Positions 817 through 32,843 of a stretch of DNA of 34,361 nucleotides are shown piece by piece. Location: positions 1 to 34,361 of the forward strand of contig RZYD01000004.1 of assembly GCA_009930445.1 (NCBI GenBank), in the 5' to 3' direction. Source of the stretch: Bacteroidia bacterium. Lineage in GTDB: Bacteria; Bacteroidota; Bacteroidia; Bacteroidales; BM520. The position numbers were made by a program, and so were the translations under genes. The number at the start of each line of letters is the position of its first letter. Within the stretch, counting starts at the first letter, position 1. The notes beneath the pieces are model-generated. The model did not search any database. It worked only from the letters and a program-made list of their open reading frames with translations, and was not told where the DNA came from.

Positions 817-1483
817 AGGTATATTTACAACTAACCACGATCGCAGTAGAGGTATCTTTAGCCCAACTCAATCCTTTAAGGTAAGACCATAATTGACCAG
901 TATCAACAGTCCCAGTCCCGTCAATAGCATTACCAAACTCAGTAATAGTAACAGAGCCACTAGGTGGATATTCAGCCTCAGTCAAAAAAGCAGTCAAATA
1001 AGCGATATTAGATGAGGCAGTAGCACTAGCAATATCATTCCTATAAGTTTCAGTTTCTAAAGTAGTATCTGAGGCAGAGGCAGAGCCAGTAGTTCCAGTC
1101 CCGAATAACGCTTTATTGATTTCTCCTGTATAGGTGGTGTCACCAGTCAATAATCTAGTAAGAGCATTAAATCCAGCATTACAGATTACATTTTTGTGAA
1201 CATCAACATTAACCAACTTACCAAAATGATAATTATTAAACATATAATCACGAACTGCCAACATAAACTCTAATTTAGTCTTTTTCAATCTACGATTGAA
1301 AAACTTTCTAAACTTATTGACATAACTATCAAATTTAGTGAATTTATATTCCTCCACCATTTTATCGCATTTAGCGACTAGATTTTTATTTTCTATTTTT
1401 TGTTTTTCCGTTAATGTTTTCTGATCGTGAAATTTAGCAGTAATCTCACCAGTAACTTTAACTTTTTGGTTTAAATTTTTCAT
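803..1483 (-). CDS. Tail/baseplate appendage protein
   Basis: ...NAGFNALTRLLTGDTTYTGEINKALFGTGTTGSASASDTTLETETYRNDI..., GTG-[ST]-DTxLxxE pattern typical of phage tail appendage proteins; position between hub and fibre. Confidence 0.55.
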   Translation of the reverse strand: MKNLNQKVKVTGEITAKFHDQKTLTEKQKIENKNLVAKCDKMVEEYKFTKFDSYVNKFRKFFNRRLKKTKLEFMLAVRDYMFNNYHFGKLVNVDVHKNVICNAGFNALTRLLTGDTTYTGEINKALFGTGTTGSASASDTTLETETYRNDIASATASSNIAYLTAFLTEAEYPPSGSVTITEFGNAIDGTGTVDTGQLWSYLKGLSWAKDTSTAIVVSCKYTFASV

Positions 1484-1493
1484 ATTTTTATAA

Positions 1494-2981
1494 TTAACCT
1501 AAATAACTTCTATTTAACATAAACTCCCTTTTTTTATCTGTCTGTCCCGTAGGAGTATAAGGGCATAAAACAAAGTCAGGATGAACCCCAGCCCCAAAAG
1601 GGTCTTTTTGTAAGTCCTCAGTGACCTCAACATCTTGGTGGTCCTCTTTTTGGTCAAGAACCTCAACCTCCTCAGTAACCTGAACCCTCTGACTATCTAT
1701 ATAATATTTTTCTAATACTTCATCCTCATTCAATTCTAAATTATCATTACTCAATAATTTATCTTGTAAAAACTGAATAATCCCCATAGTTTGAGTAGTA
1801 GCTAATTCCACAGTCCACTCTCCCTTTGTCCGAGTAATCATTTTTAAAGCTACCCTTTGGATAATGAACTGGTCAGCAATTCCCAAATCTGTCAAATTTA
1901 TTGATAAAGTTTGTCCTGATTTTAACCCACTCTCATAAGTTCTAAAAGAACCCTCCCGAACTGACTGAGCATAGCTTTCTAATTGAGCCTGTGCGTAAAG
2001 CTGTGCGTCCTCAGAACTTTTTAAGTCCTTATTGACCTTAGAGAACTCATATCTCCCAAATTGACTTATAGAGCCTAAATCCTCAATCTGAACGATTATA
2101 GGTATCTCAGGGTATCCAGTAATAACAATCGGATGAGTATCGGTAGGGGCAGTCCCAAATCTTATATATTTCTGATTATAATTCCAATAACAATCATAGC
2201 CAGTAGTATCTAAATTCTCAACCCCAACCGTAACAGGCGAACCATTAACAGTAACTATAGGCAACTCAGCAAATTTATAATCTGTATTAAAAGCAGTAGT
2301 AGTCCCGTCCCCTGTGTGGTTTTTATCACGAGTATTAGTAGCAACTTTATCAGCCCCCCTGATAGTGACAACATTTCTCAACTGACTTAAATCACTATTC
2401 AAATCTAAACTATTACCAATTATATAATCACTATCATCAGAAATATTAAAAGGTGAAGCCTCAGAGTTTTTAGCAATAAAGTGAATATCACTATCATAAT
2501 CAATATACCAAATATAATTAGTCAATTTGGCTAGATCGTTCAAGCACTGAGTAACGGTCTTTTTATTGAAAACAATTCTAGTAATCTCTATATCACAATC
2601 AACATTAGTAATCGTGACCCCTGACAAATAATTAGTATTGATATAATCAATTATGTCATTCACAGTTTCCTCATCAAAACTTTCGGTAACAATCACTCTA
2701 TCTAATTTTAAGGTTTCATCTTTTACGGTGACCTGATAATAAGCAATATCAGCCTCAAAATAATTCCTTACCCTGATTATAGTCCCACTAAATATTTTAT
2801 CTGAGCCGTCAGTAGCGACCACACTATCACCAATAGCAGGTTTATAACTCTGACCTGTATATGTTTTTATTATAAAAGAGCAGGTGTTAGGTTGCTGATT
2901 AACATTATCCTCATATCTAAAACTACCCCACTCAACCAAACTGGACTTATCAACTCCTCCGATTGTAACTGTGATGTTCAT
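1494..2981 (-). CDS. Baseplate hub / tail protein (gp27/Tal-like)
   Basis: 495 aa, directly downstream of tape measure; N-term MNITVTIGGVDKSSLVEWGSF and hub-like organisation. Confidence 0.6.
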   Translation of the reverse strand: MNITVTIGGVDKSSLVEWGSFRYEDNVNQQPNTCSFIIKTYTGQSYKPAIGDSVVATDGSDKIFSGTIIRVRNYFEADIAYYQVTVKDETLKLDRVIVTESFDEETVNDIIDYINTNYLSGVTITNVDCDIEITRIVFNKKTVTQCLNDLAKLTNYIWYIDYDSDIHFIAKNSEASPFNISDDSDYIIGNSLDLNSDLSQLRNVVTIRGADKVATNTRDKNHTGDGTTTAFNTDYKFAELPIVTVNGSPVTVGVENLDTTGYDCYWNYNQKYIRFGTAPTDTHPIVITGYPEIPIIVQIEDLGSISQFGRYEFSKVNKDLKSSEDAQLYAQAQLESYAQSVREGSFRTYESGLKSGQTLSINLTDLGIADQFIIQRVALKMITRTKGEWTVELATTQTMGIIQFLQDKLLSNDNLELNEDEVLEKYYIDSQRVQVTEEVEVLDQKEDHQDVEVTEDLQKDPFGAGVHPDFVLCPYTPTGQTDKKREFMLNRSYLG

Positions 2982-2982
2982 A

Positions 2983-5067
2983 CTATAAATTATTAGCTAG
3001 TTGTAGTTTATTTATAATTTGATTACCGATTTTTTCTCCTGCCTCATTATCAAGCAAAGTATTCCCAGTAATATTTATCTCAATAGCCCTCACCTGAGAT
3101 GAAGTTTCAGCAACTCTCCTATTTATATCAGCGACACTAATCTGACCAGTAGTCAAACCTTTCTTTGAGTTTTGAATAGCTTTAGCTAACTGATTATATT
3201 TTTCAATTTCTCTATTTATACTCTCAGCAGTAGCTAACTCACTCTCAGCAAGAAAAGCCTGATAATTTTTTAGTCCTTGTTCTTGATAGGCTTTAATCTC
3301 AGCATATTTAGCAACTTCTAAAGCTAACTCTTTTTGTAGAGCATTATACTTAGACTGATATTCCTCCTCTATCGCCATTCTCTTTAAATTCAAATCCTCC
3401 ACAGTTCTCTCAAACTCTGTTAGACTGGCTCTCCTACGAGCCTCAGCGACCTCATTATGATAAGCCAACTCAATAGACTTCTTTTCAGCCAAGACAGCTT
3501 TTTCTCTTTCTAATTCTGAGAATAACTGGTCTTTATGGTCTTGGTCTTTCTCTGACTGCCATTGAGCCTGTAAATCAGCGACTTTCTGCTCTTGTTCTAC
3601 ATAAGCCTCAGCGAAGTCATTTCTAATCCCTAGAGTATCTTTAGCATATCCAGTATTTAACTCTTTCATTTTATCTGTAATCTCAACTATTTTACTACCG
3701 ACATCATTAAGAGCCTCCATACTTTTCTCTCCAAAGTCCTCTAGTGTTTCACCGAATTTTTTAAATTGTTCTGTGGCTTTCTTTCCGTCCTCAGTAGCCT
3801 CATCAAATCCCTGAGATAAACCACTTAAAGCATTATTATATTCTCCTAACTGAGTTGTAGCCCCTGGCATACCCTCCATAGCAACGAACTCATTAAAAGT
3901 ATCAACTACTTTCTGCCAAGAACCAGCAACATAATCAGAAGTCCCCGAACTATTGGTCCCAAAATTTTTCATCTCTAAAGTGACATTAGAGAACATATCT
4001 GTGAACATAGTGCTAATTTCCTCTTTAGCACCACTAAAATCACCTGTGATAGCTTTTCCAATAGATGAAAAAACACTCATCAAGTTTTTACCAAAATCTT
4101 TAAATAAATTTATTCCGTCCTTAACGAAAGCGACCATTACCTTAGACACATCATACATAGTCATACCGAACCCGATAAAGGTATCAATAATAGCTCTCAA
4201 AGACTGCCATAGCAACTTAAAGAACTGAACAACCCCGTAGATCGTCTTTCCGACATAATTAAAGCCCTCAGCGTCAGCTCTGAGCCAATCAGCAAGTTTT
4301 ATCAACTCATCTACAAGCAGACCTCCCCAAGTGATGAGCATATTTCCTTGCGTTCTTAAAAATATATTTATACTATCTTTTAAATTTGAAATCTTACCTA
4401 GAAAAGTCCCTGATTGTTTATCCATTAAATCAAAGAACTTACCTCCCTCACCTGACATAGTTTGAAAGGCTTTCTCAACCTCAGGAAATCCAATCTTACC
4501 CTCACTAACCATATCCTTAATAGCTTTCTCACTTACATTCAAATTCTTAGCTAACTCAGATATAAGAGGCACACCTGCCCTGACGAAATCTCTTAATTCA
4601 ACACCAGTCAAAACAGTTTGACTTTTAACCTGACCATAGTTATAAGCTAGTCTATTCAAATCTACACTTAGACCAGCACTAACATCACCCAACGCTTTCA
4701 TAGTAGGTATAACGCTATTAGCCTCAATACCCATAGCTAAAAGCTGTTTAGCACTCTGCTCAATACCAACTAATTCAAAAGGTGTCTTAGACGCAAAATC
4801 AGCCAAATCTCTTAACATAAGATTGGCTTGTTCAGCACTTCCCAACATAGTAGTAAAGGCAATCTGTGTCTGCTCAAACTTTCCAGCTAAGTCTATCATC
4901 TTTCTACCGAGAGCAACTACTCCCATAGTTCCCCCCAAGATCGCACCTAATTTTAAAGCGGTAGAGCCTAAACCACCCATACCGCTTTTTACCTTGTTTA
5001 AATTGGCAGTAGCCTCATCTTTTGCCTTGATAACTATTGATAAATTTTTTTTATTTTCACCTAGCAT
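2983..5067 (-). CDS. Tail tape measure protein
   Basis: 694 aa; FEQTQIAFTTMLGSAEQANLMLRDLADFASKTPFELVGIEQSAKQLLAMG is a classic tape-measure N-terminal domain; coiled-coil C-term. Confidence 0.95.
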   Translation of the reverse strand: MLGENKKNLSIVIKAKDEATANLNKVKSGMGGLGSTALKLGAILGGTMGVVALGRKMIDLAGKFEQTQIAFTTMLGSAEQANLMLRDLADFASKTPFELVGIEQSAKQLLAMGIEANSVIPTMKALGDVSAGLSVDLNRLAYNYGQVKSQTVLTGVELRDFVRAGVPLISELAKNLNVSEKAIKDMVSEGKIGFPEVEKAFQTMSGEGGKFFDLMDKQSGTFLGKISNLKDSINIFLRTQGNMLITWGGLLVDELIKLADWLRADAEGFNYVGKTIYGVVQFFKLLWQSLRAIIDTFIGFGMTMYDVSKVMVAFVKDGINLFKDFGKNLMSVFSSIGKAITGDFSGAKEEISTMFTDMFSNVTLEMKNFGTNSSGTSDYVAGSWQKVVDTFNEFVAMEGMPGATTQLGEYNNALSGLSQGFDEATEDGKKATEQFKKFGETLEDFGEKSMEALNDVGSKIVEITDKMKELNTGYAKDTLGIRNDFAEAYVEQEQKVADLQAQWQSEKDQDHKDQLFSELEREKAVLAEKKSIELAYHNEVAEARRRASLTEFERTVEDLNLKRMAIEEEYQSKYNALQKELALEVAKYAEIKAYQEQGLKNYQAFLAESELATAESINREIEKYNQLAKAIQNSKKGLTTGQISVADINRRVAETSSQVRAIEINITGNTLLDNEAGEKIGNQIINKLQLANNL

Positions 5068-5644: not shown

Positions 5645-6619
5645 TTAGTAACTTGATTTTTCGTTAGTCAATACAGCCTCAGCACTCTTACTATCAGTTA
5701 AGCTATAAAAACCTTTAAAGGCAACAACCATTTTAACCAACTCATTATTATCTCCACTCTCAACAGGGTCGCTAAATTTAACTTTAGCTAGGTCAATTAC
5801 CAACTTAGGGTTTGAAGTAGCCCCGATAGTAACATCAGTATTGGTCAACTCAACTCTCATAGCCTTACTATCTCCGTCTAAAGCATAATCTCTCATATAT
5901 AGACTAGAGAAATATAATTCTACACTACCCTCAACAGCAACCTGCTTAACCAAGAAATCACTTGGTCCGTCATTATTCAATATATCCTTATCCTCAATAT
6001 TCTTATTGATAGTTAAGGAGATATTACGGGCGTCAATAGCAGTAGCACTATCAATCCCTGAATAATTGGCGGCTAACTTCACAGCAATATTCTTAGCCAT
6101 AAAGTAATTTTCAGCAACATAGCTAGGAGAGTTAGATGAGCTTTCGCCTTTCTTACCTCTTAACTGAGCCTCAAACTTTACATAGTCATTAACAGACGCG
6201 TCAATCTTTAAACTCTCAATTACTGAGTTAGGATAAGACACTTGTTCAAGATCGCCTCTCTTTTTCTCAATAGTAAAGGTAGGATGTTCAGCACTCTGTA
6301 AAACTGAGAAAGTGTGTTCATAAACACCACTATCACCAGTTTCACTTGAACTAACAGAACCGAAAGCACCTAATAAGAAAAACCCAAAACTTTGGTCAAA
6401 GATTTCACCAGCGACCACACCTGAGGCGAACTTCTTACTAATTACTTGGTCCTCACTATCCTGAATAACACCCATAGACCTCTCAGTAGCGATTACATCT
6501 ATCTTTTCGCTTATATCCTCATTCAAAGGTTTAAGCCAAAAAGCAGGGGTGACCTTAGTTCCTCTTGTGGTTTCTTTGCCAATACCGATATTAAATTTTC
6601 TTTTTAAAATTTCACTCAT
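5645..6619 (-). CDS. Major tail tube protein
   Basis: KFNIGIGKETTRGTKVTPAFWLKPLNEDI... typical phage tail tube N-terminus; position before chaperones. Confidence 0.85.
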   Translation of the reverse strand: MSEILKRKFNIGIGKETTRGTKVTPAFWLKPLNEDISEKIDVIATERSMGVIQDSEDQVISKKFASGVVAGEIFDQSFGFFLLGAFGSVSSSETGDSGVYEHTFSVLQSAEHPTFTIEKKRGDLEQVSYPNSVIESLKIDASVNDYVKFEAQLRGKKGESSSNSPSYVAENYFMAKNIAVKLAANYSGIDSATAIDARNISLTINKNIEDKDILNNDGPSDFLVKQVAVEGSVELYFSSLYMRDYALDGDSKAMRVELTNTDVTIGATSNPKLVIDLAKVKFSDPVESGDNNELVKMVVAFKGFYSLTDSKSAEAVLTNEKSSY

Positions 6620-7098: not shown

Positions 7099-7509
7099 TT
7101 ATGTTAGTTGTTTTAACTTTTTACATTCAAGGGTAACCTCTAACACTCTCATCATTAACTCTCTATCCTCCCACATAAAAGCCGAACTCATACTCACATC
7201 ATCACACACACCCCCAAGGGTATCATCCTCATCAAACGCATTATCAATAGTATCAGCCAAAGTATTCAATAAATCCTCACCTTGCTCTTGACCTCTAGCG
7301 TCCTCATTAACTTCCTGATAAATACGAACCCTAAAATTATAAGTCTTATTTATGGTTTTTACACTCTCACGAGTTTTAGTATTCTCCGACCCTAAAATTA
7401 CAGCGACAGGATATTCCTCAAAACTTCCTTTATTATATTTATAGACTTCTTTTATTCCGTCTATCGCTTTTAATTTATTGTAGATCGCAGTAATCAAAGT
7501 TTGCCTCAT
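7099..7509 (-). CDS. Tail terminator/completion-like protein
   Basis: 136 aa MRQTLITAIYNKLKAIDGIKEVYKYNKGSFEEYPVAVI..., position after gp10-like. Confidence 0.55.
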   Translation of the reverse strand: MRQTLITAIYNKLKAIDGIKEVYKYNKGSFEEYPVAVILGSENTKTRESVKTINKTYNFRVRIYQEVNEDARGQEQGEDLLNTLADTIDNAFDEDDTLGGVCDDVSMSSAFMWEDRELMMRVLEVTLECKKLKQLT

Positions 7510-8263: not shown

Positions 8264-8847
8264 ATATTTCTAACTCTATAAGTGGATAACATAGATTTTA
8301 ATTCAGGAGTTAAACAATCCTGAAAGGTGACATTTCCTCCGTCTAATCCCTCAGAACTCTCACCCTCACTCTCACTTTTATTATAAAACCCGTCAGCTAA
8401 CTTTAAACAGGCTAATTTAAGCCCATTAGGTAAATCAGCACTATCTCCTGAGATCGTATATCCAGCAGTATAAACAACCTTATAATTATTATATCCTGAT
8501 TGAACTCCTAGATTTTCTCTAGTGAAATTCAATTTGATTATTCCCTCATCAGTCAATAGAGCATAATTATCTCTATCCTCCTCACTCCAACTAGGTGAAC
8601 TTTCTGTCCCTGAGTTATAATAAACAGTCACATCAGTTATCTTAGTCCGATTAGTTAAGAAAATTTGGTCGCCCTCATCAATAATATCATCTCCGTTAAA
8701 ATACTCAGTGACCTCTCCTTTAACTAATTTATTCTGACAATAGGATTGAACAAAATCAATCACACCATTCACAATCAAGTCAATTTTATCATCATAAGTA
8801 TCTACACTTATACCAGCGAAATTTTTAAACTCTGCTTTTGTAATCAT
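8260..8847 (-). CDS. Head-tail connector (gp6-like adaptor)
   Basis: MITKAEFKNFAGISVDTYDDKIDLIVNGVIDFVQSYCQNKL typical adaptor N-terminus. Confidence 0.75.
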   Translation of the reverse strand: MITKAEFKNFAGISVDTYDDKIDLIVNGVIDFVQSYCQNKLVKGEVTEYFNGDDIIDEGDQIFLTNRTKITDVTVYYNSGTESSPSWSEEDRDNYALLTDEGIIKLNFTRENLGVQSGYNNYKVVYTAGYTISGDSADLPNGLKLACLKLADGFYNKSESEGESSEGLDGGNVTFQDCLTPELKSMLSTYRVRNI

Positions 8848-9486: not shown

Positions 9487-10043
9487 AATAATTTTATAGT
9501 AATTAACATTTTTGAATAATCATCAGACCTAGCTACATATCGGTCAACGACCTTAAAATATAAATCTAATCTTTCTAAAAATAACTCCTCGTAGATTGAG
9601 GTTTTATGTTTTTCAGCAGGATTACCACCACACTCATCTTGTTCAACCACACCGAGAGGCACAACAATCATCATATACTTGAATATCCCCTTTAACCTAA
9701 CCAATAAATCAAACATCTCATTTTCCTCTAAATGCTCTAACACATCCCCAAAGATTGCGAGATCGTAGGTTTTCTTACTATCCCACCATTCCCTTATATC
9801 ACACTTCTCAACCACATTATAAATCCCCTCATACTTCAACCACTCAACAGACTTATCAAAAACTTCTAATCCTTTTAAAAAGATATTAGGTCCAAGAACT
9901 GAACGAGCTATCACTCCATACTTACCAAGACCAGCACCAAAATCAACGATAGTAGCAGGTTGTATTCTTTTTAAAATAACCTTAGCGACTTCATCTGTCA
10001 TCCCCCAACTTCCTCCTGTATTTTCAGGTTTTATCTTTTCCAT
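9483..10043 (-). CDS. SAM-dependent methyltransferase (class I-like)
   Basis: TIVDFGAGLGKYGVIAR...YDLAIFGDVLEHLEENE; 4-nt overlap with downstream GT. Confidence 0.75.
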   Translation of the reverse strand: MEKIKPENTGGSWGMTDEVAKVILKRIQPATIVDFGAGLGKYGVIARSVLGPNIFLKGLEVFDKSVEWLKYEGIYNVVEKCDIREWWDSKKTYDLAIFGDVLEHLEENEMFDLLVRLKGIFKYMMIVVPLGVVEQDECGGNPAEKHKTSIYEELFLERLDLYFKVVDRYVARSDDYSKMLITIKLL

Positions 10044-11515
10044 ATTTTCATAAAATCAACTTTATTAAAATCAATCACTTCACCCTTTTTCATCATTCTA
10101 TTATATAGGTCAGGATTTTCTAAAAGCATTTTCTTGTCATACTTTAGCTGTCTTTCCTTTTTAGCCTTTACATCCTCATCTCTCACATAACCAAAATGCT
10201 TTAAGATATATTCAGTTTCTTTCCTATTCTGATAAGCATATTTAGGTCCTGAACCACAGTGTAGATTTCTGTCATAGAACTTTTGTGATTGTTCGGGGCA
10301 ATATCTAAATAACCTGATATTCTTTTGCTGAGAAAACACCCCGTCAATTCTTACTTTATCCTCAGACCCCCAATAATGAGCCAAGACAAAATCATAGGCA
10401 ATACCACTATTGAGCAAACTGATAATAGCAGGTCTATTTAATTCCTCATCAAAGAACTCATCTGCGTCAATCGGGATAATTCCAAGAGGATTTTTAGAGA
10501 TAGCATATTGAGTAGCCCTCTCTCTTAATAAGTTCTCAGCCTTACCAAACAATTTGAATTTATGCTCGTAGATCGTGATAGGGTAATATTCTTTTAACCT
10601 TTTTAACTCTTTTATAGTTTTAGTATCTGAGTTATCACAGACAACAACTATCTCGTCAATTAGTTTCCTTTTAAATAAGTCAATAATTACTCTACTCATA
10701 TATCTGTCAGCCTCATTACCGACAATCATACTCCCGATTATTCTTTCCTTGTTTTTCCACTTTAAATTAAAATAAGCAAGACCATTATAATAATTAGAAC
10801 GCCAAAACTCAGACATAGTATTTACACTATCCTTGCCCTCGTGTTTGGCTTTAGCCTTGCTTACACAAATTTTATATCCTCGCCTTTTAACATTCTCACA
10901 TAAATCATTATCCTCAAACATAAAGAAAAATGTTTCATCAAATCCTCCAATCATCTCAAATAACTCTCTCCTAATACACATCACAGAGCCATTAAGACCC
11001 CAAGAGGTTTCAGAACAAGCAGTCCCGACCATTCCGACCTCACTATCACTAAAAGGCTTTAACAGATTATAGAAAAAACCACTCTCACTTAACTCAACAT
11101 CATCATTTAGGAATAAGATAAACTCTCCTAGTCCCTCATTTAACTTAGCCCCGTCATTACAGGCTTTAGCAAAACCCCCAACCTCAGGGCTAAACTTCCT
11201 CTCAATAACTTCAAGAGTAATTTTTTTCTGTTTTAAATATTTTTTAAGAACACCTAAACTAGCGATTGATTTCTTGTCCTTAGTAGGCACAACAACATCA
11301 ATAACTCCTCTTTGATATTTCTTGCCGAGAATATTACGCCCAGTCAATTTATCTCTCTCAACCTCATCAGGCATATAAACATCCTCCAGCAACTCAGTCT
11401 TTTTAACAATCTTATCTTTTTTTAATTGTTTATATTCCTCAGGGCTTACAGCTCTGACATCCCCTGGCACATAATTATCTTGACCTTTTAGATATTCCAC
11501 TAATATCTTGGTCAT
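10031..11515 (-). CDS. Glycosyltransferase with N-terminal capsid-adjacent-type small domain and a second GT-like half
   Basis: IDVVVPTKDK...FILFLNDDVELSESG...GGFDETFFFMFEDNDLC; second half GNEADRYMSRVI...IPIDADEFF. Confidence 0.8.
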   Translation of the reverse strand: MTKILVEYLKGQDNYVPGDVRAVSPEEYKQLKKDKIVKKTELLEDVYMPDEVERDKLTGRNILGKKYQRGVIDVVVPTKDKKSIASLGVLKKYLKQKKITLEVIERKFSPEVGGFAKACNDGAKLNEGLGEFILFLNDDVELSESGFFYNLLKPFSDSEVGMVGTACSETSWGLNGSVMCIRRELFEMIGGFDETFFFMFEDNDLCENVKRRGYKICVSKAKAKHEGKDSVNTMSEFWRSNYYNGLAYFNLKWKNKERIIGSMIVGNEADRYMSRVIIDLFKRKLIDEIVVVCDNSDTKTIKELKRLKEYYPITIYEHKFKLFGKAENLLRERATQYAISKNPLGIIPIDADEFFDEELNRPAIISLLNSGIAYDFVLAHYWGSEDKVRIDGVFSQQKNIRLFRYCPEQSQKFYDRNLHCGSGPKYAYQNRKETEYILKHFGYVRDEDVKAKKERQLKYDKKMLLENPDLYNRMMKKGEVIDFNKVDFMKIWKR

Positions 11516-11763: not shown

Positions 11764-12825
11764 CTATTTAACACCAGTCATTTTCTTACAAGCGGCAGGA
11801 AGTGTATAAACACCGTCCACAGCTTCAGCAACAACTAGCTCAACTTGTAACTTAGATAGGACTTTGTCTGTATCAACAAACATTTTTTCTCCGTCCTTAA
11901 TCCAGTAATACCACATATCACCGAAATAGATTTCTGTGGTATCAGCAGAACTTCCTAAATTAGCAGGGATGTCAGCACTTTCAACCAAAGGTTTGCCTAA
12001 TACTTTAGTAGTATTAAAGTCAAAAATTGGTCTACCGTTGTCATCCTCTACATTTAGAATAGCCTGCATTCCAAGTGAGGAAGTTAAGAATACTGCGTTA
12101 TCACGATATTGTTCATCTAGAGCAAAATATAGTTTAACCATATCTTTATACTCTAAAGCTGAACCAGCCTGAGCAATAGTGCCAGTCAAAGAAGCAGATC
12201 GTAGACCTGTAGGCTTAGCGTCACCGTCACCAGCAACGAAAGCACTTTCCTCTTTGTTTCTTAACGAACGAGCACACAATTCACCAACATAGTTAACGAT
12301 ATTATATGCTGAGGTATTTAACAACTTACGAGGAATAAGAACTCTAGCCGCTAAATAGTAATCCCCAAGAGTTTTCTTGTTTAAAGTAGGATTGCTTTCA
12401 GTGATAGTTTCGTTCTCATCTACCCAATAACCTGTAACACCTGTCCCCTCAGTAGGTAATTGAAAATTACCTGACATTTGGAAAACAAAAGCCAACTTAC
12501 GCATTTTGGCAATTTTATCTTTGGCTTGTAAGATAAAAGAGCTTAATTCGGTAGGCACAGCGTAACCGAATGATTCAGTATCAGAGTCAATAGCTTTCTT
12601 TTCAAACTCAGCAGATTTCTGCTCACTACATACTTCTTTGATGAAGTTAGCAGATTTCTCTAAATTTTCCTCGTCACTATTAACTTTAACTTCGTCTTTT
12701 AAAGTGCCTTTGACCTCATCAAGGACTTCCTTTTTAAGGTCAGGGATTATTTCTTTAATCCCGTCAGCCATTATGGATTTTAATTCCTCCATAGTGACCT
12801 CTTTGATTTCATTTTTTTCACTCAT
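11764..12825 (-). CDS. Major capsid protein, HK97 fold, with charged N-terminal delta-like region
   Basis: FGYAVPTELSSFILQAKDKIAKMRKLAFVFQMSG...RVLIPRKLLNTS...YFGDMWYYWI. Confidence 0.9.
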   Translation of the reverse strand: MSEKNEIKEVTMEELKSIMADGIKEIIPDLKKEVLDEVKGTLKDEVKVNSDEENLEKSANFIKEVCSEQKSAEFEKKAIDSDTESFGYAVPTELSSFILQAKDKIAKMRKLAFVFQMSGNFQLPTEGTGVTGYWVDENETITESNPTLNKKTLGDYYLAARVLIPRKLLNTSAYNIVNYVGELCARSLRNKEESAFVAGDGDAKPTGLRSASLTGTIAQAGSALEYKDMVKLYFALDEQYRDNAVFLTSSLGMQAILNVEDDNGRPIFDFNTTKVLGKPLVESADIPANLGSSADTTEIYFGDMWYYWIKDGEKMFVDTDKVLSKLQVELVVAEAVDGVYTLPAACKKMTGVK

Positions 12826-21116: not shown

Positions 21117-21722
21117 TTATTTAATTAAATCAAGGAGTTTCTGACCGTCTAATACACGACCAACCCCTTTTTGTTTATAGTCTTTATTACTACTCTTAGA
21201 TAAAACACTTTTCAATTTAAAATAATCCTCAATAGCCATCCAATCAACTGAATTGTTAAAAGCAAATACTATATAATTATTTTCCTCTAATAACTCAGCA
21301 CTAAACTCCTCCTCCTTAACCAAGCTGACATCATCAGCGAATACCTTACTCAACTCACTCTCCATAAAACCAACCTCTCTCAATAACTTCTCATCCAGTC
21401 CAGCCAATAACTTAGTATCAAACTCACCCTTATTTTTATTCAATCTTAAATTTAACTCTTTCTCATCCTTAATCTGTAAATTCACACCAACACAAGGCAC
21501 TTCTTTCATTCCTAACTCCTGAGCAATCATTAACCTTTGATGACCACCGATAACAATATTTTTCCTCTTAGGATTGATATTGATTACAATAGGCTCAACG
21601 AAATCAAATTTTTTAATTGACTTTTTTAATTCCATTTTTTCCTTTTTCCCAATCTTTCGGGGATTGTAGGTAGCAGGTTTTAATTCACTAACCTTTTTTT
21701 GTATTATTTTTAGATTGCTCAT
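21117..21722 (-). CDS. ParB/sulfiredoxin-fold domain protein
   Basis: VSELKPATYNPRKIGKKEKMELKKSIKKFDFVEPIVIN...VIGGHQRLMIAQELGMKEVPC. Confidence 0.88.
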   Translation of the reverse strand: MSNLKIIQKKVSELKPATYNPRKIGKKEKMELKKSIKKFDFVEPIVININPKRKNIVIGGHQRLMIAQELGMKEVPCVGVNLQIKDEKELNLRLNKNKGEFDTKLLAGLDEKLLREVGFMESELSKVFADDVSLVKEEEFSAELLEENNYIVFAFNNSVDWMAIEDYFKLKSVLSKSSNKDYKQKGVGRVLDGQKLLDLIK

Positions 21723-22152
21723 AATTTTGTTTATCCATATTTATAATATAAATACTCTTGATTTTTTCTCCCCTGAACTCTCCTTTATCAATAGCCTTTT
21801 TAATGGCATTAGTAGCTTTATCTAATACCTGTTTAGCCTCCTTATCAAAATTCAATTTCAAATTTTTAAACTTCTCTTTAGCCTCTTTCTTGATCGTAGG
21901 TAAAAATTGATATTTAGCCCCGTGTAGCATACGCAAATAAGCAACCCTATTATTCTCATCATCCTGAACCTCAACAGGCGAATAAATAACAGCCCTTTCT
22001 TTATTCCCATTCTTATACTCTACTGCGACAAGCACAGAACCAATCAAGAAATATTTAACCTCTTGCTTAATTCCTTTTTTTGACTTTTTATATTTACTAT
22101 CAAAATCTACTTTAAAAAATAGATTTCTTTTAATTGTGTTTTTAATATCCAT
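21688..22152 (-). CDS. Hypothetical protein
   Basis: 154 aa ORF, same-strand packing. Confidence 0.6.
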   Translation of the reverse strand: MDIKNTIKRNLFFKVDFDSKYKKSKKGIKQEVKYFLIGSVLVAVEYKNGNKERAVIYSPVEVQDDENNRVAYLRMLHGAKYQFLPTIKKEAKEKFKNLKLNFDKEAKQVLDKATNAIKKAIDKGEFRGEKIKSIYIINMDKQNYEQSKNNTKKG

Positions 22153-22155: not shown

Positions 22156-22368
22156 CTAATTTTTTATTTTATACTTAACTCCGTTAATATTTAGAGTGCC
22201 TTTCATTCCATATAAAGCCCCGATTAACTTTAACCCGTCTTTATTGAAAATCTTTTTAGCACACCAACGCCAAACGAATTTAGGCATAAAATTAGGTTTC
22301 TTTCTTAGAAATATGATGAAAGAGTTTCTTGTCCCCTTTCTAATTTTTTTAGCTTCCTTTGTGTTCAT
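22156..22368 (-). CDS. Small hypothetical protein
   Basis: 70 aa ORF overlapping preceding gene end. Confidence 0.5.
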   Translation of the reverse strand: MNTKEAKKIRKGTRNSFIIFLRKKPNFMPKFVWRWCAKKIFNKDGLKLIGALYGMKGTLNINGVKYKIKN

Positions 22369-23053
22369 AGGTAAATTTGTTAGATAATTTTTTTCTCATT
22401 TCAGCTAGATGTTTATTTATTCTAGCTTGTTCCTCAGGTGTTCTTTCTACTTTAGCCTCTCTTATCATTCTTTGAGTTTCAGTTTCAACTTGCTTTTTAT
22501 TTTCTTGCCTTATCTCACTATCACTAGGCAATTTCTTATATTCAGGCTTAGCCCACTTCTTATTATTCCTGAGCCAAGTAGACCACCTCTGACGCATAGC
22601 AAAAGTTTTCTGTTTTTGCCAGTGTTCTTTTTTGCCTCCGTCATTCTTAGCAGTCCAATAATCAATGAACGCTTTTCTCTCCTCATATAAATCAGCAGGG
22701 ATTGAACCGACAAGATCGTCAAACTTTTCTTTAAAAGACTTATTGCCACTACCCTTGACTGGCTCTGTAATAATTTGAGGATAAATCTTTCTTAGGTTTC
22801 CCCCAGCCCTATCAACCTCACTCTTTAAAAATCCTCTATCCTCTAAACTCTTAATCAATCTACTGACCTGAGTAATTGAGATTTTAAATAACTCAGCAAA
22901 ATACTGATTACTAGCCCAGCAATATCCCTCTTGATTACTTAATGCTGTTATCTCTGCGAACAATAGTTTAGCAGTAGAACCAACAACATCATCATATCTC
23001 ACAGTAGCAGGAATAATCGCCCAAAAGCTAGGTCTTTCTTTTTCATTCTCCAT
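22349..23053 (-). CDS. HTH replication-initiation-like protein
   Basis: RPSFWAIIPATVRYDDVVGSTAKLLFAEITALSNQEGYCWASNQYFAELFKISITQVSRLIKSLEDRGFL; start revised to MENEKERPS (23053). Confidence 0.75.
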   Translation of the reverse strand: MENEKERPSFWAIIPATVRYDDVVGSTAKLLFAEITALSNQEGYCWASNQYFAELFKISITQVSRLIKSLEDRGFLKSEVDRAGGNLRKIYPQIITEPVKGSGNKSFKEKFDDLVGSIPADLYEERKAFIDYWTAKNDGGKKEHWQKQKTFAMRQRWSTWLRNNKKWAKPEYKKLPSDSEIRQENKKQVETETQRMIREAKVERTPEEQARINKHLAEMRKKLSNKFTYEHKGS

Positions 23054-23059
23054 ATTATT

Positions 23060-23088
23060 ATTATACACTATTTTTTAAACCTTGCCAA
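23060..23088 (-). promoter_or_regulatory. Sigma70-like promoter TTGGCA-N17-TATAAT abutting ATG at 23053
   Basis: plus strand ATTATA 23060-23065, 17 nt, TGCCAA 23083-23088. Confidence 0.7.
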
Positions 23089-23091: not shown

Positions 23092-23550
23092 CTAAAAACA
23101 AAATCTCTCAATAAATCCTATCTCCTTTAATAAATCCTCTTTAATAGACTTACGACTTTCATCCTCAGCAATCATCTCAGCCTCCCTCCACTTAGAAAAT
23201 GGCACAATAATCATCTCTCTGTCTTTGGCTCTCTGACCTTTTTTATAGAACCAAACAACTACATACCCATTACCACAACCAAAAAAGCAGTCAAAAGGTT
23301 TTTTGTTTGTGAACCTCATTTTAGGATTATCAGGAATAAAGGGCATATCATTTATTTTGTGATAGCACCCCTCATCCTCAACTTCTTTCAAAGCGATAAC
23401 CTGATGAGGACTTAAACTGTCAAACCTAATTGACTGCGACTTTTCTATTTTCAACTCAAAAGCTGAAAATTTACCATATTGACTTTTTATATATCCTTTA
23501 TTTTCCTCAGCCCATTTAGAAAATAAAATTTGAAAATCTTTCTCTTTCAT
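23092..23550 (-). CDS. RecU-like/PD-(D/E)XK Holliday junction resolvase-like protein
   Basis: SAFELKIEKSQSIRFDSLSPHQVIALKEV...YHKINDMPF...KKPFDCFF; start revised to MKEKDFQ. Confidence 0.7.
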   Translation of the reverse strand: MKEKDFQILFSKWAEENKGYIKSQYGKFSAFELKIEKSQSIRFDSLSPHQVIALKEVEDEGCYHKINDMPFIPDNPKMRFTNKKPFDCFFGCGNGYVVVWFYKKGQRAKDREMIIVPFSKWREAEMIAEDESRKSIKEDLLKEIGFIERFCF

Positions 23551-23575
23551 ACGACAAGCAAAATATAAAAGATTA

Positions 23576-23956
23576 CTAGAGCTGAGGAGGGACAACAGAG
23601 TAAGTCCTATCATCCCTCTCCTCTATCCTCAAACTCTTATATTTATTAGTTAAATATTTTTTAATCTGCCTCCAATCTCTTGTAGGCATACGCTTACAGA
23701 GGTCATCAATATCGGCTCTAATAATAGCCCTATACCGATTATAATCTTTATCAAGACCATTCCCTCTGTGATGATAACTACAAACTGGCACGATAGCCCA
23801 TTTCTCATTTATTCTTTTACCAGCAAATAAGAAAGCGTGTTCCCACTCTACTCTCCCCTGACATTCGTGTCCTTTCCCTATATCGCAATAAATACAAGAT
23901 CGCATAAACGGGTCCTCAGCTATCTCCTTTCTCATTTTTAATGGTATCGGTTTCAT
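23576..23956 (-). CDS. HNH-type zinc-binding nuclease-like protein
   Basis: CIYC...CQGRVEWEHAF...INEKWAIVPVCSYHH. Confidence 0.7.
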   Translation of the reverse strand: MKPIPLKMRKEIAEDPFMRSCIYCDIGKGHECQGRVEWEHAFLFAGKRINEKWAIVPVCSYHHRGNGLDKDYNRYRAIIRADIDDLCKRMPTRDWRQIKKYLTNKYKSLRIEERDDRTYSVVPPQL

Positions 23957-24887: not shown

Positions 24888-25238
24888 TTAATTATTATAT
24901 TTTTTATAAAATTCGTTTGCTAGTTTTAGCACTCGTAATCGTAACATATTTTTCTCGCCTTTTTTAAGTCCATTTATCCCCACAAACCTCTCTCCTCCAT
25001 TTTTTTGATTACGATTATTCTCAGCTATACTCCTCTTAGGAAATTTCATATCTGAGCATTTTTTAGGCTCTACCAAATCACCAATCCTCTCATCAGGTCC
25101 AATTCGGTAGATCGCAACATCAAATCCACTTAAACAAGGCTCTAGGCAAATCTCATAATCCTTAAACTCAAAGGAATAATACATCTGCCTATCATCAGTT
25201 ATAGCTAACTGAAAGTCTTTCCATTCTAATTTTTTCAT
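24888..25238 (-). CDS. Hypothetical protein
   Basis: Start revised to MKKLEWKDFQLAI; same-strand packing. Confidence 0.55.
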   Translation of the reverse strand: MKKLEWKDFQLAITDDRQMYYSFEFKDYEICLEPCLSGFDVAIYRIGPDERIGDLVEPKKCSDMKFPKRSIAENNRNQKNGGERFVGINGLKKGEKNMLRLRVLKLANEFYKKYNN

Positions 25239-25909: not shown

Positions 25910-26341
25910 TTAGAATGGTATATCCTCAACCCTTATCTCAGGCTCATTATCAGCACTAGGCTGAGAATAATCTGTTTTAGGTTCGGGCTGAGAATACTCA
26001 CCTTGATTATTTTGATTATCATTTTTAGAACTTAAGAACTCCAACTCATTAACAATAACCTCAGTCACATATTTCTTAACTCCATTACTCTCATAATCTC
26101 TAGTCCTCAATTCACCGATAACTCCAATCTTAGAGCCTTTAGTTAGATGTTCAGCAAAGACTTCTGCCTGACGACCAAATAAAACGATATTGGTAAAATT
26201 AACTATCTGCTGTCTTTGTCCTTGCTGGTCTTTATAAAATTTATTAGTAGCGATTGAATTTGACACAACCGACTTACCTGTGTTTGTTTTTTTGAGTTCG
26301 GGATTTTTAGTGATATTCCCGATTAAAATTACTTTGTTCAT
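25910..26341 (-). CDS. ssb: Single-stranded DNA-binding protein
   Basis: MNKVILIGNITKNPELKKTNTGKSVVSNSIATN...FTNIVLFGRQAEVFAEHLTKGSKIGVIGELRTRDYE; acidic tip DIPF. Confidence 0.97.
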   Translation of the reverse strand: MNKVILIGNITKNPELKKTNTGKSVVSNSIATNKFYKDQQGQRQQIVNFTNIVLFGRQAEVFAEHLTKGSKIGVIGELRTRDYESNGVKKYVTEVIVNELEFLSSKNDNQNNQGEYSQPEPKTDYSQPSADNEPEIRVEDIPF

Positions 26342-26351: not shown

Positions 26352-26795
26352 TTAGAATAAATTAGCTTGTGGAGATTTTTCAGCTTGATACTCCTCTCTC
26401 CTCTTATAGCTGTAATAATCTATATCACTAATATTCACAGCCATAGGTTCTTTAGAGTGAGTTTCCCAAGCCTTATGATCGTAGGAAAGGACTTGGTTTG
26501 CCATAGTAGCAACTATATCCATACAAGTAACCTCTCCGTGAATAAACTTAATCCCCTCCTCAGTAGGTATCCAACCACCTTTAGCACCATAGACTAATCC
26601 GAAGTATTGTAGCTTTTGAAAGTTAGCTAATTGATTATGAGTTAAATCTAGGCTTTTCTGTAAATTACAGGCTAGATGATATTTCTCAAAATAATCAACT
26701 AATTTTCTCAACGCCTTAACTAAAGGCACATTTAGTCTGTGAGTATAGGCAGTCACCACACCACCACAGCACTCACACTTTTCTTGATACTTCAT
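26352..26795 (-). CDS. Zinc-ribbon/winged-helix-like hypothetical protein
   Basis: CECCGGVV...LDLTHNQLANFQKLQYFGLVYGAKGGWIPTEEGIKFI. Confidence 0.55.
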   Translation of the reverse strand: MKYQEKCECCGGVVTAYTHRLNVPLVKALRKLVDYFEKYHLACNLQKSLDLTHNQLANFQKLQYFGLVYGAKGGWIPTEEGIKFIHGEVTCMDIVATMANQVLSYDHKAWETHSKEPMAVNISDIDYYSYKRREEYQAEKSPQANLF

Positions 26796-26796: not shown

Positions 26797-27582
26797 CTAT
26801 TGAACTAAAGCCTCCATTTCTTTCTGTATATTTTTAAGATACAGACAAGAAAGGTAGCCCTTTGTTATACGAGGGTCAGACTTAAAACTCTTAACTGCGA
26901 ACTCAGCATTTTCTTTCCCAAATCTAACAATCCAATTTCTATCAAATTTCTTTTCAAACTCCTCCTCGTGAGCAAGACCATAACCACCAACCTGTAAAAT
27001 AAAGTCCCAATAAATTCCATTACCACTTTTAAAATCTATCAAACAATATTCTCCGTCAACCTCAGCGATACAATCTAAAGTCCCAACGAAATTATATTTT
27101 TTTGAATAGACTAATTTTTCAGTAGCAATAAACTTTACATTATGCTCTTTCTCCCAATCCCTAAAAGCTAAATAGGCATTTTTAATTTCAGGGTCTTTAG
27201 GTATAGCAGGGATAGTCTTTCTCTCTCCTAATTTATATTTAATATACTCACTTACTAGATCGTGGATAATAGAACCCTTTTCAGCAGACTTATCCCTTTT
27301 AGTCCTCCAAGCATTTTTAGCTTGATTGATTTCAGGCTCTCCCACTACTCCCCCACTACTTAAAACATCAACGAGGGCTTTTCCCATTTCTTTACAAGCC
27401 CAAGGGATTAAGAGGGGCTTATCTATCATACCAGTAGCACCAGTAACCGATTTTAGCCATTCTCCATTATCTCGTCTAATATAGACGTGAGAATAGCGAC
27501 CATACTTCTCATAGAAGTCTATTGTGATTGAACCCCCATAAAGATTAAATGTTCTTGTAGGGGTATAAGTTGTCTTTGCCAT
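26797..27582 (-). CDS. PD-(D/E)XK nuclease superfamily (Cas4/exonuclease-like)
   Basis: EKGSIIHDLVSEY...NFVGTLDCIAEVDGEYCLIDFKSGNGIYWDFILQVGGY. Confidence 0.85.
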   Translation of the reverse strand: MAKTTYTPTRTFNLYGGSITIDFYEKYGRYSHVYIRRDNGEWLKSVTGATGMIDKPLLIPWACKEMGKALVDVLSSGGVVGEPEINQAKNAWRTKRDKSAEKGSIIHDLVSEYIKYKLGERKTIPAIPKDPEIKNAYLAFRDWEKEHNVKFIATEKLVYSKKYNFVGTLDCIAEVDGEYCLIDFKSGNGIYWDFILQVGGYGLAHEEEFEKKFDRNWIVRFGKENAEFAVKSFKSDPRITKGYLSCLYLKNIQKEMEALVQ

Positions 27583-27608: not shown

Positions 27609-28541
27609 TTATTTTACCATTTTAGGACTATTTAAAAAGTCCATTAAATATTTTTGAGCAGTAGATTGCTGTATTTTTAAACTCTTAATATTCTGACCAG
27701 TATAGTTATTATATACCTCAACCATAATCTCAACTTTCTCCTTAGTTAACCCGTCATCAAGGCTTATCTCAGCCTCCTTTGCCAAGACCCTGACTAGCTT
27801 ACTAAAATAATCAACTCCTTTATCCTCTTTGACTACCTCAGGCTCTATCTGATTACCCTCTACAACCTCAACATTCTCCGGATTACTCTCACTCACAATA
27901 AACTCATTCTTGTTATAGACATCACTAGCAATCCCCAACTCACTAGCACATTTCTTAAGGGCGTCAGTAGAGGCACTTTTATAATCATTAGCCATATCAA
28001 CTGGCATACTGGTATTAGACTTCAAATACTTAACACTAGCACCACCGAACTGGCTTTTGACGATAGCAACATTATTGTTTTCGTCTTTAATGATTAACTT
28101 ACCTTGAACCCAAACCTGAACGACTTTGTTTCCTACTTTGACCTCTCCCTTATCAATAATCTCAAAGTCCCAACGCCAACCGAATAAATAGTTTAGAGCA
28201 GTTTTCATATAACCACCCTCAACATAACTCAGCATAGTCCCACTTGGTCCTTTTCTTTGTTTGATATACTGAGCAGGTGTTCTCTCTGCCATTTTGAGCA
28301 ACACCTTTAAATCAAAGACTGGTTTAACTAGAGATTTTTTACTCTCTACAACCAAAGCCTTATTTAACTGCTGAGATAAATCCTCAGCTTTTTGTTCTGT
28401 TTCCACTAAAGCAAGTTTCAACTCTTTAACCTGCTTACTCTCTCTAGGCTTTCTAGTAGCCTTTTTTTGAGATGTTTTTTTAGCGACTTTCTTTTTAGTA
28501 GTCTTAGCTACCTTTTTTGTCGCAGTCTTAGTCTTTGCCAT
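27609..28541 (-). CDS. Rad52-like single-strand annealing protein with Lys-rich N-terminal tail
   Basis: TALNYLFGWRWDFEIIDKGEVKVGNKVVQVWVQGKLII...DYKSASTDALKKCASELGIASDVY. Confidence 0.75.
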   Translation of the reverse strand: MAKTKTATKKVAKTTKKKVAKKTSQKKATRKPRESKQVKELKLALVETEQKAEDLSQQLNKALVVESKKSLVKPVFDLKVLLKMAERTPAQYIKQRKGPSGTMLSYVEGGYMKTALNYLFGWRWDFEIIDKGEVKVGNKVVQVWVQGKLIIKDENNNVAIVKSQFGGASVKYLKSNTSMPVDMANDYKSASTDALKKCASELGIASDVYNKNEFIVSESNPENVEVVEGNQIEPEVVKEDKGVDYFSKLVRVLAKEAEISLDDGLTKEKVEIMVEVYNNYTGQNIKSLKIQQSTAQKYLMDFLNSPKMVK

Positions 28542-28895: not shown

Positions 28896-29246
28896 TTACT
28901 TTTTCCCCAATATTATCTTAGCAATTTTTTCAGTAGTCATACACCTCAGATTACTAATCCCAGCGTAGAAATCACAATCATTATCTAATTCTCTCTGAAC
29001 AAGAGGCTTGTGGTTTGAAAATCTTATTTTATATAATTTCTCACCCTTTTTAACAAAAACATATTTAGATATTTTGTTAGATCGTGGAATATATAACTTA
29101 ACCTCCCAACCCTCTCTCAACATCCTGAGAATAAATCTGAGATATTTAGGGGCACCATATTTCCCCTGAGATAGCTTCATCACCTTTTTGGCAATATCTC
29201 TCTCATTACAGGGTCTAGCCCTGTGGTAGTTTTTCTTAAACGCCAT
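28896..29246 (-). CDS. Hypothetical protein
   Basis: 116 aa ORF, co-directional. Confidence 0.55.
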   Translation of the reverse strand: MAFKKNYHRARPCNERDIAKKVMKLSQGKYGAPKYLRFILRMLREGWEVKLYIPRSNKISKYVFVKKGEKLYKIRFSNHKPLVQRELDNDCDFYAGISNLRCMTTEKIAKIILGKK

Positions 29247-29559
29247 ACTTAGAAATTTTTAGACTATTATAATGACGGGCGTCTTTAGCATATCTATATA
29301 AGAAATCAACAATCTCATTAAGGTCAAACTCACTCTCTCTGAACTTCACATCCCAATCAAACACGATCGCACCATAATTCAAAGCCTTACTCTTATTATT
29401 AAAGGCAATAGCCCAAAGTCCATTATCCTCAACCCAATAAAACTGATAGCCTAATTCCTCGTGATAATCAGCAGTAAAACGCATTATATCATCTAAACTG
29501 GCGAACTCTCCGAAGTCAAAGCCAACTACTAGCTTTGCTATTTCTTTTTTAGTAATCAT
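29236..29559 (-). CDS. Hypothetical protein
   Basis: 107 aa ORF, co-directional. Confidence 0.55.
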   Translation of the reverse strand: MITKKEIAKLVVGFDFGEFASLDDIMRFTADYHEELGYQFYWVEDNGLWAIAFNNKSKALNYGAIVFDWDVKFRESEFDLNEIVDFLYRYAKDARHYNSLKISKYGV

Positions 29560-30117: not shown

Positions 30118-30192
30118 TTAATTTTCCTCCTCCTCTGGTAGATCGTCAATATCTTGATGATTAGCAGGGAGGTAGGGATTAAAATTTAACAT
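30118..30192 (-). CDS. Possible 24-aa acidic small protein
   Basis: MLNFNPYLPANHQDIDDLPEEEEN*; fills the gap between neighbours. Confidence 0.35.
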   Translation of the reverse strand: MLNFNPYLPANHQDIDDLPEEEEN

Positions 30193-30843: not shown

Positions 30844-30870
30844 AAAATATTTTTAATTGATTATGTTAGT

Positions 30871-30899: not shown

Positions 30900-30906
30900 G
30901 TCGTAT

Positions 30907-31260: not shown

Positions 31261-31320
31261 AGTATTATTTTTAATTATTATAAGCAGATCGTATCTTATC
31301 GTTGATATTTTTCAAGTCTA

Positions 31321-31350: not shown

Positions 31351-31432
31351 CTGTTAAAATCTCGTGGCAAAGACTTTCTGACAAGGGAGAGGAGAAAGAC
31401 CCAAGTCAGTATATAAAAATCCTTTCGGAATT

Positions 31433-32551
31433 TTATTTCAATTTTAATGTTCCCTGTATCGCCTTATCCCACTCAATCTCACCTTTCTCATTCTTAGGCA
31501 CTTCAATACCGAAATTTAAACATACACTCTCCATAGCCTCAGGACTTAAGAAAGGAAGCCATACACCCACAGCAGGGCTATTCTCATCCTTAATAATTTT
31601 TACATTTTGATTGTTAGACATATCATTCCAATTATTATTTAAGTCAATCAATGTCCAAGGGCTATAAACGAAATACCCAGCGAAATAATCACTTTGTAAT
31701 TTCTGCCAACCCTCAACTCCACAGGAATTGCCCCAAGAGTTTATCGGACTGATTGTTTTTTTATTATTTTCTAAAAATGCTTTTCCACCAAATAAAGCGT
31801 GTGACCAAGCAACCTCTAAAGGAATTTGTGGATATTCAGAAGTCCAACCTCTACCATTCTCTCCGTCAACTGCGAAAAATACTCCCAACCCCATAAGCAT
31901 AGCCCAAGCCATTTTATCCATTAACTCAGGTCCAAACCCTTTAACGCTTTTATATTCTTTACTCTTAAGGATTGAACGAACCTCTTTCAGCTCATCAGTT
32001 TCCTCAGGCTTTTCTAAATATTCTTTTTCTGAGTAAGGATTTCTGACTATCCCGTGGTCAGTTTCAAATTCGTGATAACAAGGCACTAATTCCTCAGTCC
32101 CAACTCCACGATTACAAGTCAACTTTAATCCGTCCCTTAGATAAGCACCAACTCCCTCTCCAAGAGAAATATAAGCATAAATATCCCTAGCAGATATTTT
32201 TTTATATTCTCCAGTTTCAATAAAATTTAATATCTCTAAATAATAACTCAAAGCCTGTCCTACGCAAGAACTAGATATGCCTTGATTTTTTACAGGTATT
32301 TTAAAAGGAGGAATATTTTTCTTTTTTACTTCATCAACTATCTCTCTATATCGGTCAACTCCCCAGCCCTCTCGTCCTCTTATTCCAAAAAACTCAGCCT
32401 CATCTTTACAGATCGCACGATAGCCGAGTAATAATTCAATATCAAAACCTAACTCCCAATCAAAGGGGGCAACAGAGGCAAATGCTCTATCTCTTTTGTC
32501 CTCCATTTGTTTTGACAATATTGAACTTTTACCTAAATCTTTCTCTAACAT
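31433..32551 (-). CDS. Papain-family (C1-like) cysteine peptidase
   Basis: PFKIPVKNQGISSSCVGQALSYYLEI (Cys), WSHALFGGKAF (His), SPINSWGNSCG (Asn); start revised to MLEKDLGK. Confidence 0.8.
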   Translation of the reverse strand: MLEKDLGKSSILSKQMEDKRDRAFASVAPFDWELGFDIELLLGYRAICKDEAEFFGIRGREGWGVDRYREIVDEVKKKNIPPFKIPVKNQGISSSCVGQALSYYLEILNFIETGEYKKISARDIYAYISLGEGVGAYLRDGLKLTCNRGVGTEELVPCYHEFETDHGIVRNPYSEKEYLEKPEETDELKEVRSILKSKEYKSVKGFGPELMDKMAWAMLMGLGVFFAVDGENGRGWTSEYPQIPLEVAWSHALFGGKAFLENNKKTISPINSWGNSCGVEGWQKLQSDYFAGYFVYSPWTLIDLNNNWNDMSNNQNVKIIKDENSPAVGVWLPFLSPEAMESVCLNFGIEVPKNEKGEIEWDKAIQGTLKLK

Positions 32552-32552
32552 A

Positions 32553-32843
32553 TTATTTATTAGCATTAGTTAAGACAAATTGTAGAAGTAATAAAAATCC
32601 TGAGGCTATATAAACAAATCTTTCTAATTTTCTCATTCTGTTTTCGTGGTCTTTGATTTTAGTATCAACAGCAATCTCTTGTATTTTTATTTTTTCTCCA
32701 ACCTCCTCTTTATCACATTTATTAACTTCAACTTTAGATAGTCTAGTTTTAAAGTCATTATTATCCCGTATTAAATCAGATAGACGAGTATCTATCCTAA
32801 TAAGCAGATCGTGGTCACTTTGATATTTACTTTCCTCCGACAT
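32553..32843 (-). CDS. Coiled-coil protein with C-terminal TM (XhlA-like topology)
   Basis: ...NRMRKLERFVYIASGFLLLLQFVLTNANK, next to holin. Confidence 0.6.
   Translation of the reverse strand: MSEESKYQSDHDLLIRIDTRLSDLIRDNNDFKTRLSKVEVNKCDKEEVGEKIKIQEIAVDTKIKDHENRMRKLERFVYIASGFLLLLQFVLTNANK

Follow-up and report, generated by a model that had tools for sequence, protein, structure and literature searches.

All EcoP15I sites of phage T7 lie in one orientation. Avoidance of Type II restriction sites, GATC included, is well known in phages (PMC6286503), and Chi is over-represented in lambdoid phages that have a recombinase and no RecBCD inhibitor, with a median observed/expected ratio of 2.50 (PMC3784561). 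Lambda exonuclease pauses at GGCGATTCT, of which GGCGA is the crucial part; this pause site was noted at the left cohesive end, with no even genome-wide series reported (PMC7496540). In cyanobacteria, the HIP1 sequence GCGATCGC is a highly repeated word (PMC6604393). Here we describe RCGATC, the sole context of GATC in a 34,361-nucleotide stretch of DNA (contig RZYD01000004.1, positions 1 to 34,361 of the forward strand, GenBank assembly GCA_009930445.1, Bacteroidia bacterium; hereafter the window). The window is a complete tailed-phage genome with a circular map and a 99-base repeat at both ends, and its GATC pattern looks like a direction-reading signal for a DNA-end-processing enzyme. We found no report of a one-way, evenly spaced motif of this kind in such phages in the literature searched.

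A direct count places 30 GATC in the window, from position 839 to 32807, and all 30 read GATCGY on the plus strand. The word is followed by GT at 21 sites and by GC at 9, and preceded by A at 22, T at 5, C at 3 and G at none, exactly as a preliminary description of the sequence had listed. Because the window genes all lie on the minus strand, RCGATC always stands on the coding strand, as that description had also proposed. To set expectations, we used synonymous codon shuffling (300 shuffles), which preserves the proteins and codon usage. The shuffles predict 87 ± 7 GATC, near the roughly 100 estimated earlier, against 30 observed; 6.4 ± 1.8 RCGATC (maximum 14), against 30; and 80.6 GATC in other contexts (minimum 60), against none. 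The shuffle check proposed in the preliminary description thus fails to reproduce the restriction, and its account of general GATC avoidance with a single enriched context is borne out by the codon-null figures and by the recurrence of the pattern in relatives. The sites occupy all three codon frames, again as first noted, and three are intergenic; shuffles and frame use together rule out a codon or amino-acid cause. The rule is that any GATC needs RC ahead of it on the coding strand. The reverse orientation is limited in the window to two sites, both of them the palindrome RCGATCGY.

Even spacing, an additional flank preference and recurrence in relatives go beyond that earlier account. Window sites have no A at position −3 and no C at +4. 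Across 167 sites in five genomes, A is at −3 in only 12, compared with 24–29% ahead of other RCG words; pyrimidines are favoured at −4, and C is nearly missing at +4, giving the fuller coding-strand motif Y-B-RCGATC-D. This preference is one-sided, indicating that the recognised element is directional and longer than GATC. Reverse copies are almost limited to the palindrome RCGATCGY, found at 15 of the 167 sites where about 10% would be expected by chance, and a reverse copy is therefore harmless as such when a forward copy is present.

Sites in the window are spread with unusual regularity, at about one per 1.1 kb (5, 4, 5, 4, 4, 4 and 4 per successive 5 kb). Gaps range from 285 to 1960 bp, with 2294 bp across the circular join, and none of 20,000 random placements was as even (coefficient of variation (CV) 0.38). 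Among 189 hexamer patterns of similar count in the same genome, RCGATC is the most even. Spacing CVs of 0.38–0.63 compare with about 1 for control words, and in four of five genomes the value for RCGATC is the lowest among 140–335 control words. We considered GAAGT, the second strongest word, as a similar signal and rejected it: its spacing is uneven (CV 0.93), and it is a leftover of GAAGA and GAAGG avoidance.

Relatives gathered from IMG/VR through the terminase show the same pattern in at least four further distinct phage genomes, whose terminases are 67–83% identical. At the nearest loci, coding-strand RCGATC accounts for 4/4, 22/23, 6/7, 17/19, 9/9, 14/15, 9/9, 3/3 and 7/7 GATC, several of these contigs being overlapping or near-copies; additional contigs gave 10/10, 13/13 and 5/5, and whole contigs 39/42, 37/47, 38/43, 13/15 and 23/25. 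Observed RCGATC counts against the codon null are 30/6.4 in the window and 39/10.7, 37/12.2, 38/13.8 and 13/6.7 in relatives, a 2- to 5-fold enrichment in five genomes or large contigs, while other GATC fall to 0/81 (window), 3/75, 10/82, 5/127 and 2/66. Contig-wide, RCGATCW is distributed between the strands 33:0, 21:0, 24:0 and 12:0 in four relatives. The pattern is confined to this group. In a word scan of relative loci, CGATC was conspicuous (z 6–19) in this group only; GATC contexts are ordinary in the next relative (G005/L010, 64% terminase identity) and at the remaining viral or prophage loci that we examined, all more distant; and beyond the group the pattern was not seen in phages whose replication, glycosyltransferase or ParB genes are related. 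A weak bias was seen in G007 (L124-L125, 55% terminase identity), with 10 forward RCGATC and 1 reverse, though GATC is not avoided there.

Density and direction persist between relatives while most positions turn over. At 70–74% DNA identity, 28 of 116 aligned sites are common, compared with about 13% for control words, so the position conservation that the preliminary description had suggested checking is mostly absent. Turnover of this kind rules out a set of fixed functional sites and indicates a dispersed signal. G005 is informative about what the motif accompanies: it has structural genes in common with the window phage, but we found in it no homologs of the exonuclease, single-stranded DNA-binding protein (SSB), initiator, ParB-like or TAGT-family proteins. 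The motif thus goes with the early gene module, which fits a phage-encoded reader; a change of host could also have this effect.

Many restriction-type words are all but missing from the window phage. Observed/expected counts are 0/64 for TCGA, 0/47 for GTAC, 1/40 for ACGT, 1/37 for CATG, 1/40 for TGCA, 3/77 for GANTC, 1/46 for CCATC, 2/97 for GAAGA and 2/54 for CCTTC, and the words are depleted on both strands relative to the codon-preserving null, as in avoidance of the Type II type. GGCC, GCATC, GTCTC and ATTAAT are also near zero. Relatives likewise avoid ACGT, GTAC, CCTTC and GATC outside RCGATC, whereas the remaining avoided words differ. Against such a background, the 30 GATC left, all in one context, have to be either required by the phage or exempt.

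Exemption alone is insufficient to account for 2- to 5-fold enrichment, evenness and one-way orientation. A one-way, dispersed word that the phage needs would be of the Chi kind, and turnover at constant density is expected of a signal that can be read anywhere. We therefore infer, tentatively and well short of confidence, that RCGATC, or more fully YBRCGATCD, serves as a dispersed, directional, Chi-like recognition signal in a phage that has lost its other GATC. Among the causes raised in the preliminary description, a Chi-like signal fits best; no oriented enrichment was seen in the bacterial DNA tested. In such a scheme, a nuclease, either a helicase-nuclease of the host or the exonuclease encoded by the phage, would enter DNA that is being replicated or packaged at a free double-strand end, move opposite to the direction of the genes and come upon RCGATC once per 1.1 kb or so; on reading it, the enzyme would stop degrading or switch to recombination. 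Other GATC would have been stripped by hosts carrying GATC-cutting restriction enzymes among many more, and the cost of each GATC, set against the need for coverage, would keep sites few and evenly spaced. Lambda packaging begins at the small-terminase (terS) end. If packaging here were lambda-like in this respect, the enzyme would reach coding-strand RCGATC at its 3′ side, which is the productive one for Chi. The window phage encodes a recombination set comprising an exonuclease, a Rad52-like annealing protein, SSB and a RecU-like protein. Since lambda exonuclease pauses strand-specifically before GGCGATTCT, the phage exonuclease is also a possible reader. A narrower form, in which the Chi system belongs to the phage itself and an even, one-way signal is read by the phage exonuclease or the ParB-like protein at the cost of retained GATC, seems to us somewhat doubtful.

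Several observations weigh against a Chi-like role. Sites are uniform genome-wide, whereas those of lambdoid phages concentrate around the origin and the packaging site (PMC3784561), and in one relative, G002, evenness falls short of significance (CV 0.79, P 0.10). If GATC restriction is real, the 30 remaining sites should be cut unless they are tolerated or protected. Signals in the DNA strand and in mRNA are inseparable here, because convincing opposite-strand genes are missing from every genome of the group; the minus-strand genes of G003 are only spurious-looking open reading frames of 213–225 bp. Oriented, enriched RCGATC was present in no chromosome examined, none of them from an established host, at 150–340 kb of bacterial DNA read per group. 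In the metagenome-assembled genome (MAG) binned with the window, RCGATC is split 106 to 90 by coding strand and the longer motif 33 to 17, and the stretches of Patescibacteria and Desulfobacteraceae MAGs lack oriented RCGATC enrichment.

The two lines of evidence on the host disagree. The contig was placed in a 3.5-Mb, Bacteroidota-like MAG, whereas the terminase tree puts the group among Patescibacteria-binned contigs (Moraniibacteriota, Falkowbacteria and Gracilibacteria), apart from Bacteroidota prophages. Terminase relatives occur in Patescibacteria, Desulfobacteraceae and Nanoarchaeote bins (L010/L160, Desulfobacteraceae MAG SURF_4; L128-L130, L134), and may be Patescibacteria phages or binning errors. 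The co-binned MAG was rejected as the source of the signal, RCGATC being not clearly enriched there, and an apparent AGATCGT enrichment in it (242 against 44) was voided by the listing of plus-strand matches first and by a poor reversed-letter control. The Desulfobacteraceae MAG was rejected as host, with ordinary, unbiased GATC across the 331 kb read; apparent thousands of one-way RCGATCW in that MAG were an artefact of the same plus-first listing and of the reversed-letter control, which contains the rare word CTAG. A search of 299 genomes of the phylum for CRISPR spacers matching the leading 19 kb of the window gave only short, chance-level matches, and none of the 19 loci read is part of an array-like repeat.

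Other causes account for parts of the pattern. It is rather unlikely that RCGATC is simply a protected context, in which host enzymes would cut GATC while copies inside YBRCGATCD are marked on one strand and survive. The marker would be a phage or host modification enzyme that may involve, for example, the ParB-like and TAGT-family proteins; the 30 sites would be those within its reach, and might be retained because the mark itself is useful. Protection would supply a single cause for a lone surviving context in a genome with so few other restriction words (TCGA 0, GTAC 0, ACGT 1, CCATC 1, both strands), and the TAGT-family and ParB-N proteins rank with the most conserved of the group outside the structural set, motif-less G005 having yielded no homolog of either. 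Yet protection alone would leave the 2- to 5-fold enrichment, the regular spacing and the one-way orientation unpredicted; the proteins scanned include no DNA methyltransferase domain or hydroxymethylating enzyme, no TET/JBP protein or hydroxymethylase was found alongside the TAGT-family glycosyltransferase, and the substrate of the TAGT match may instead be virion proteins or sugars. Some other directional DNA process is also unlikely, whether lagging-strand initiation every 1–2 kb in one-way replication, programmed one-strand nicks of the T5 virion type, or stepwise loading of a phage ParB-like protein while DNA is replicated or packaged. Such a process would suit sites placed evenly, some 1.1 kb apart, on one strand around the whole circle, a ParB-N protein resembling ParB/Spo0J/Noc, and a motif that tracks the early/replication module and is missing from G005 despite common structural genes. 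However, no primase was found in the window phage and its initiator is DnaD/O-like, so that a host primase would be expected, and host primases read about three bases. ParB-type sites are long palindromes, unlike RCGATC, and the loss of GATC elsewhere would need a second cause.

Two further explanations are less likely still. An mRNA-level signal, YBRCGAUCD, read about once per kb of message by, for example, a processing or RNA-binding protein, would explain why co-directional genes place the motif always in the sense strand, and motif positions are slightly less paired than those of control words (0.43 against 0.39, P = 0.04). We nonetheless consider it very unlikely, because spacing is indifferent to gene boundaries, with sites anywhere in genes and in three intergenic gaps, no consistent structure was seen, and the loss of GATC from other contexts is left unexplained. 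Restriction avoidance in which one orientation is immune, as for EcoP15I and T7, another cause put forward in the preliminary description, appears highly improbable. Type III-like enzymes require head-to-head sites, so that a single orientation escapes (PMC6286503), and restriction-word avoidance in this phage is extreme; but reverse copies in RCGATCGY occur at chance frequency (15/167), without selection against the opposite orientation, and neither enrichment nor evenness is predicted. Part-site words should be irrelevant to such an enzyme, yet GATC outside RCGATC numbers 0 against 81 expected, and systematic strand-asymmetric avoidance of Type I/III sites is not reported in PMC6286503. A dispersed, directional, Chi-like signal remains the reading that we tentatively favour.

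Genes and sites of the window are collected in Table 1. All genes of any size are on the minus strand, including those of the recognisable structural proteins (terminase, portal, protease, capsid, tube, tape measure and baseplate). The exonuclease is 62–69% conserved in the motif-sharing relatives whose contigs span its module, and the ParB-N protein has recognisable similarity to ParB/Spo0J/Noc. Conservation of the TAGT-family glycosyltransferase tops that of the group's proteins, exceeding the terminase. A glycosyltransferase-2 family gene (10031-11515) lies inside the structural block and is 65–77% conserved in three relatives. A 377-residue protein (31433-32566), without Pfam or PHROGs family and 58–63% conserved in the group, has papain-like C...H...NSWG motifs by eye. 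The end repeats, of 99 bases in the window (1-99 and 34263-34361) and 127 at the ends of G001, have exact sizes that resemble assembler k-mer lengths, and look like circular maps rather than genuine terminal repeats.

Table 1 Coordinates of RCGATC sites and genes in the window
Feature	Position	Strand	Remarks
RCGATC site 1	839..844	-	GATCGC on +
RCGATC site 2	1423..1428	-	
RCGATC site 3	2534..2539	-	
RCGATC site 4	4240..4245	-	
RCGATC site 5	4939..4944	-	
RCGATC site 6	6250..6255	-	
RCGATC site 7	7483..7488	-	homologous place in L002 has a site too
RCGATC site 8	8452..8457	-	
RCGATC site 9	9761..9766	-	
RCGATC site 10	10571..10576	-	
RCGATC site 11	12197..12202	-	
RCGATC site 12	14104..14109	-	
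RCGATC site 13	15262..15267	-	portal gene; common to L001-L003
RCGATC site 14	16024..16029	-	terminase gene; common to L001-L003, L007
RCGATC site 15	17984..17989	-	intergenic
RCGATC site 16	19113..19118	-	
RCGATC site 17	20329..20334	-	
RCGATC site 18	20949..20954	-	
RCGATC site 19	21892..21897	-	
RCGATC site 20	22714..22719	-	
RCGATC site 21	23898..23903	-	
RCGATC site 22	25110..25115	-	
RCGATC site 23	26477..26482	-	
RCGATC site 24	27258..27263	-	
RCGATC site 25	29080..29085	-	
RCGATC site 26	29365..29370	-	
RCGATC site 27	30141..30146	-	intergenic
RCGATC site 28	31287..31292	-	intergenic
RCGATC site 29	32411..32416	-	
RCGATC site 30	32807..32812	-	
Large terminase subunit	15939..17321	-	served to collect relatives and set genome direction
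Small terminase subunit, probable	17308..17847	-	
TAGT-family glycosyltransferase	19739..20479	-	76-85% in group; candidate DNA- or virion-modifying enzyme
Stand-alone ParB-N domain protein	21117..21722	-	62-82% in motif-bearing relatives; second candidate reader
DnaD/replication initiation-like protein	22349..23068	-	
RecU-like Holliday junction resolvase	23092..23613	-	weak match
SSB	25910..26341	-	
PD-(D/E)XK-type exonuclease (PHROG 298)	26797..27582	-	candidate motif reader
Rad52-like single-strand annealing protein	27609..28541	-	Pfam Rad52_Rad22, 6.1e-10

Few bacteria have known recombination or end-protection signals, and most such signals have come from long chromosomes. In a phage purged of restriction-type words, a needed word stands nearly free of noise, and such signals could be read from phage sequence for uncultured hosts too, with evenness, full orientation and positional turnover as a direct measure of selection. 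The avoidance profile, which differs in part among relatives, could likewise reveal the restriction repertoire of unidentified hosts, and how restriction trades off against a required GATC-containing word is open to testing.

HIP1 is palindromic and non-directional. It resembles the phage motif in having CGATC inside a highly repeated word, but the octamer palindrome RCGATCGY makes up only 15 of the 167 phage sites (9%). The EcoP15I sites of T7 are likewise one-way; RCGATC differs in tolerating reverse copies in palindromes and in being enriched and evenly spaced. Lambda exonuclease offers a strand-specific response to a word with a CGA core, and the window exonuclease falls in the wider PD-(D/E)XK group, although GGCGA is only partly like RCGATC. 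As in phage restriction-site avoidance (PMC6286503), GATC, ACGT, GTAC, CATG and other words are near zero in the window, which departs from that precedent by keeping an asymmetric exception that is enriched, one-way and evenly spaced. In contrast to Chi, the recombination hotspot of RecBCD/AddAB, RCGATC has a GATC core and recurs evenly at about one per kb, where lambdoid Chi is clustered between origin and packaging site; no host genome bearing the same signal was found, and the proposed readers are candidates. Like Chi (PMC3784561), RCGATC is a short, asymmetric, dispersed word, over-represented in one orientation in the genome that carries it, here that of a phage that encodes a recombinase, and its observed/expected ratio of 2–5 is comparable with the median of 2.5 for lambdoid phages that have a recombinase and lack the inhibitor.

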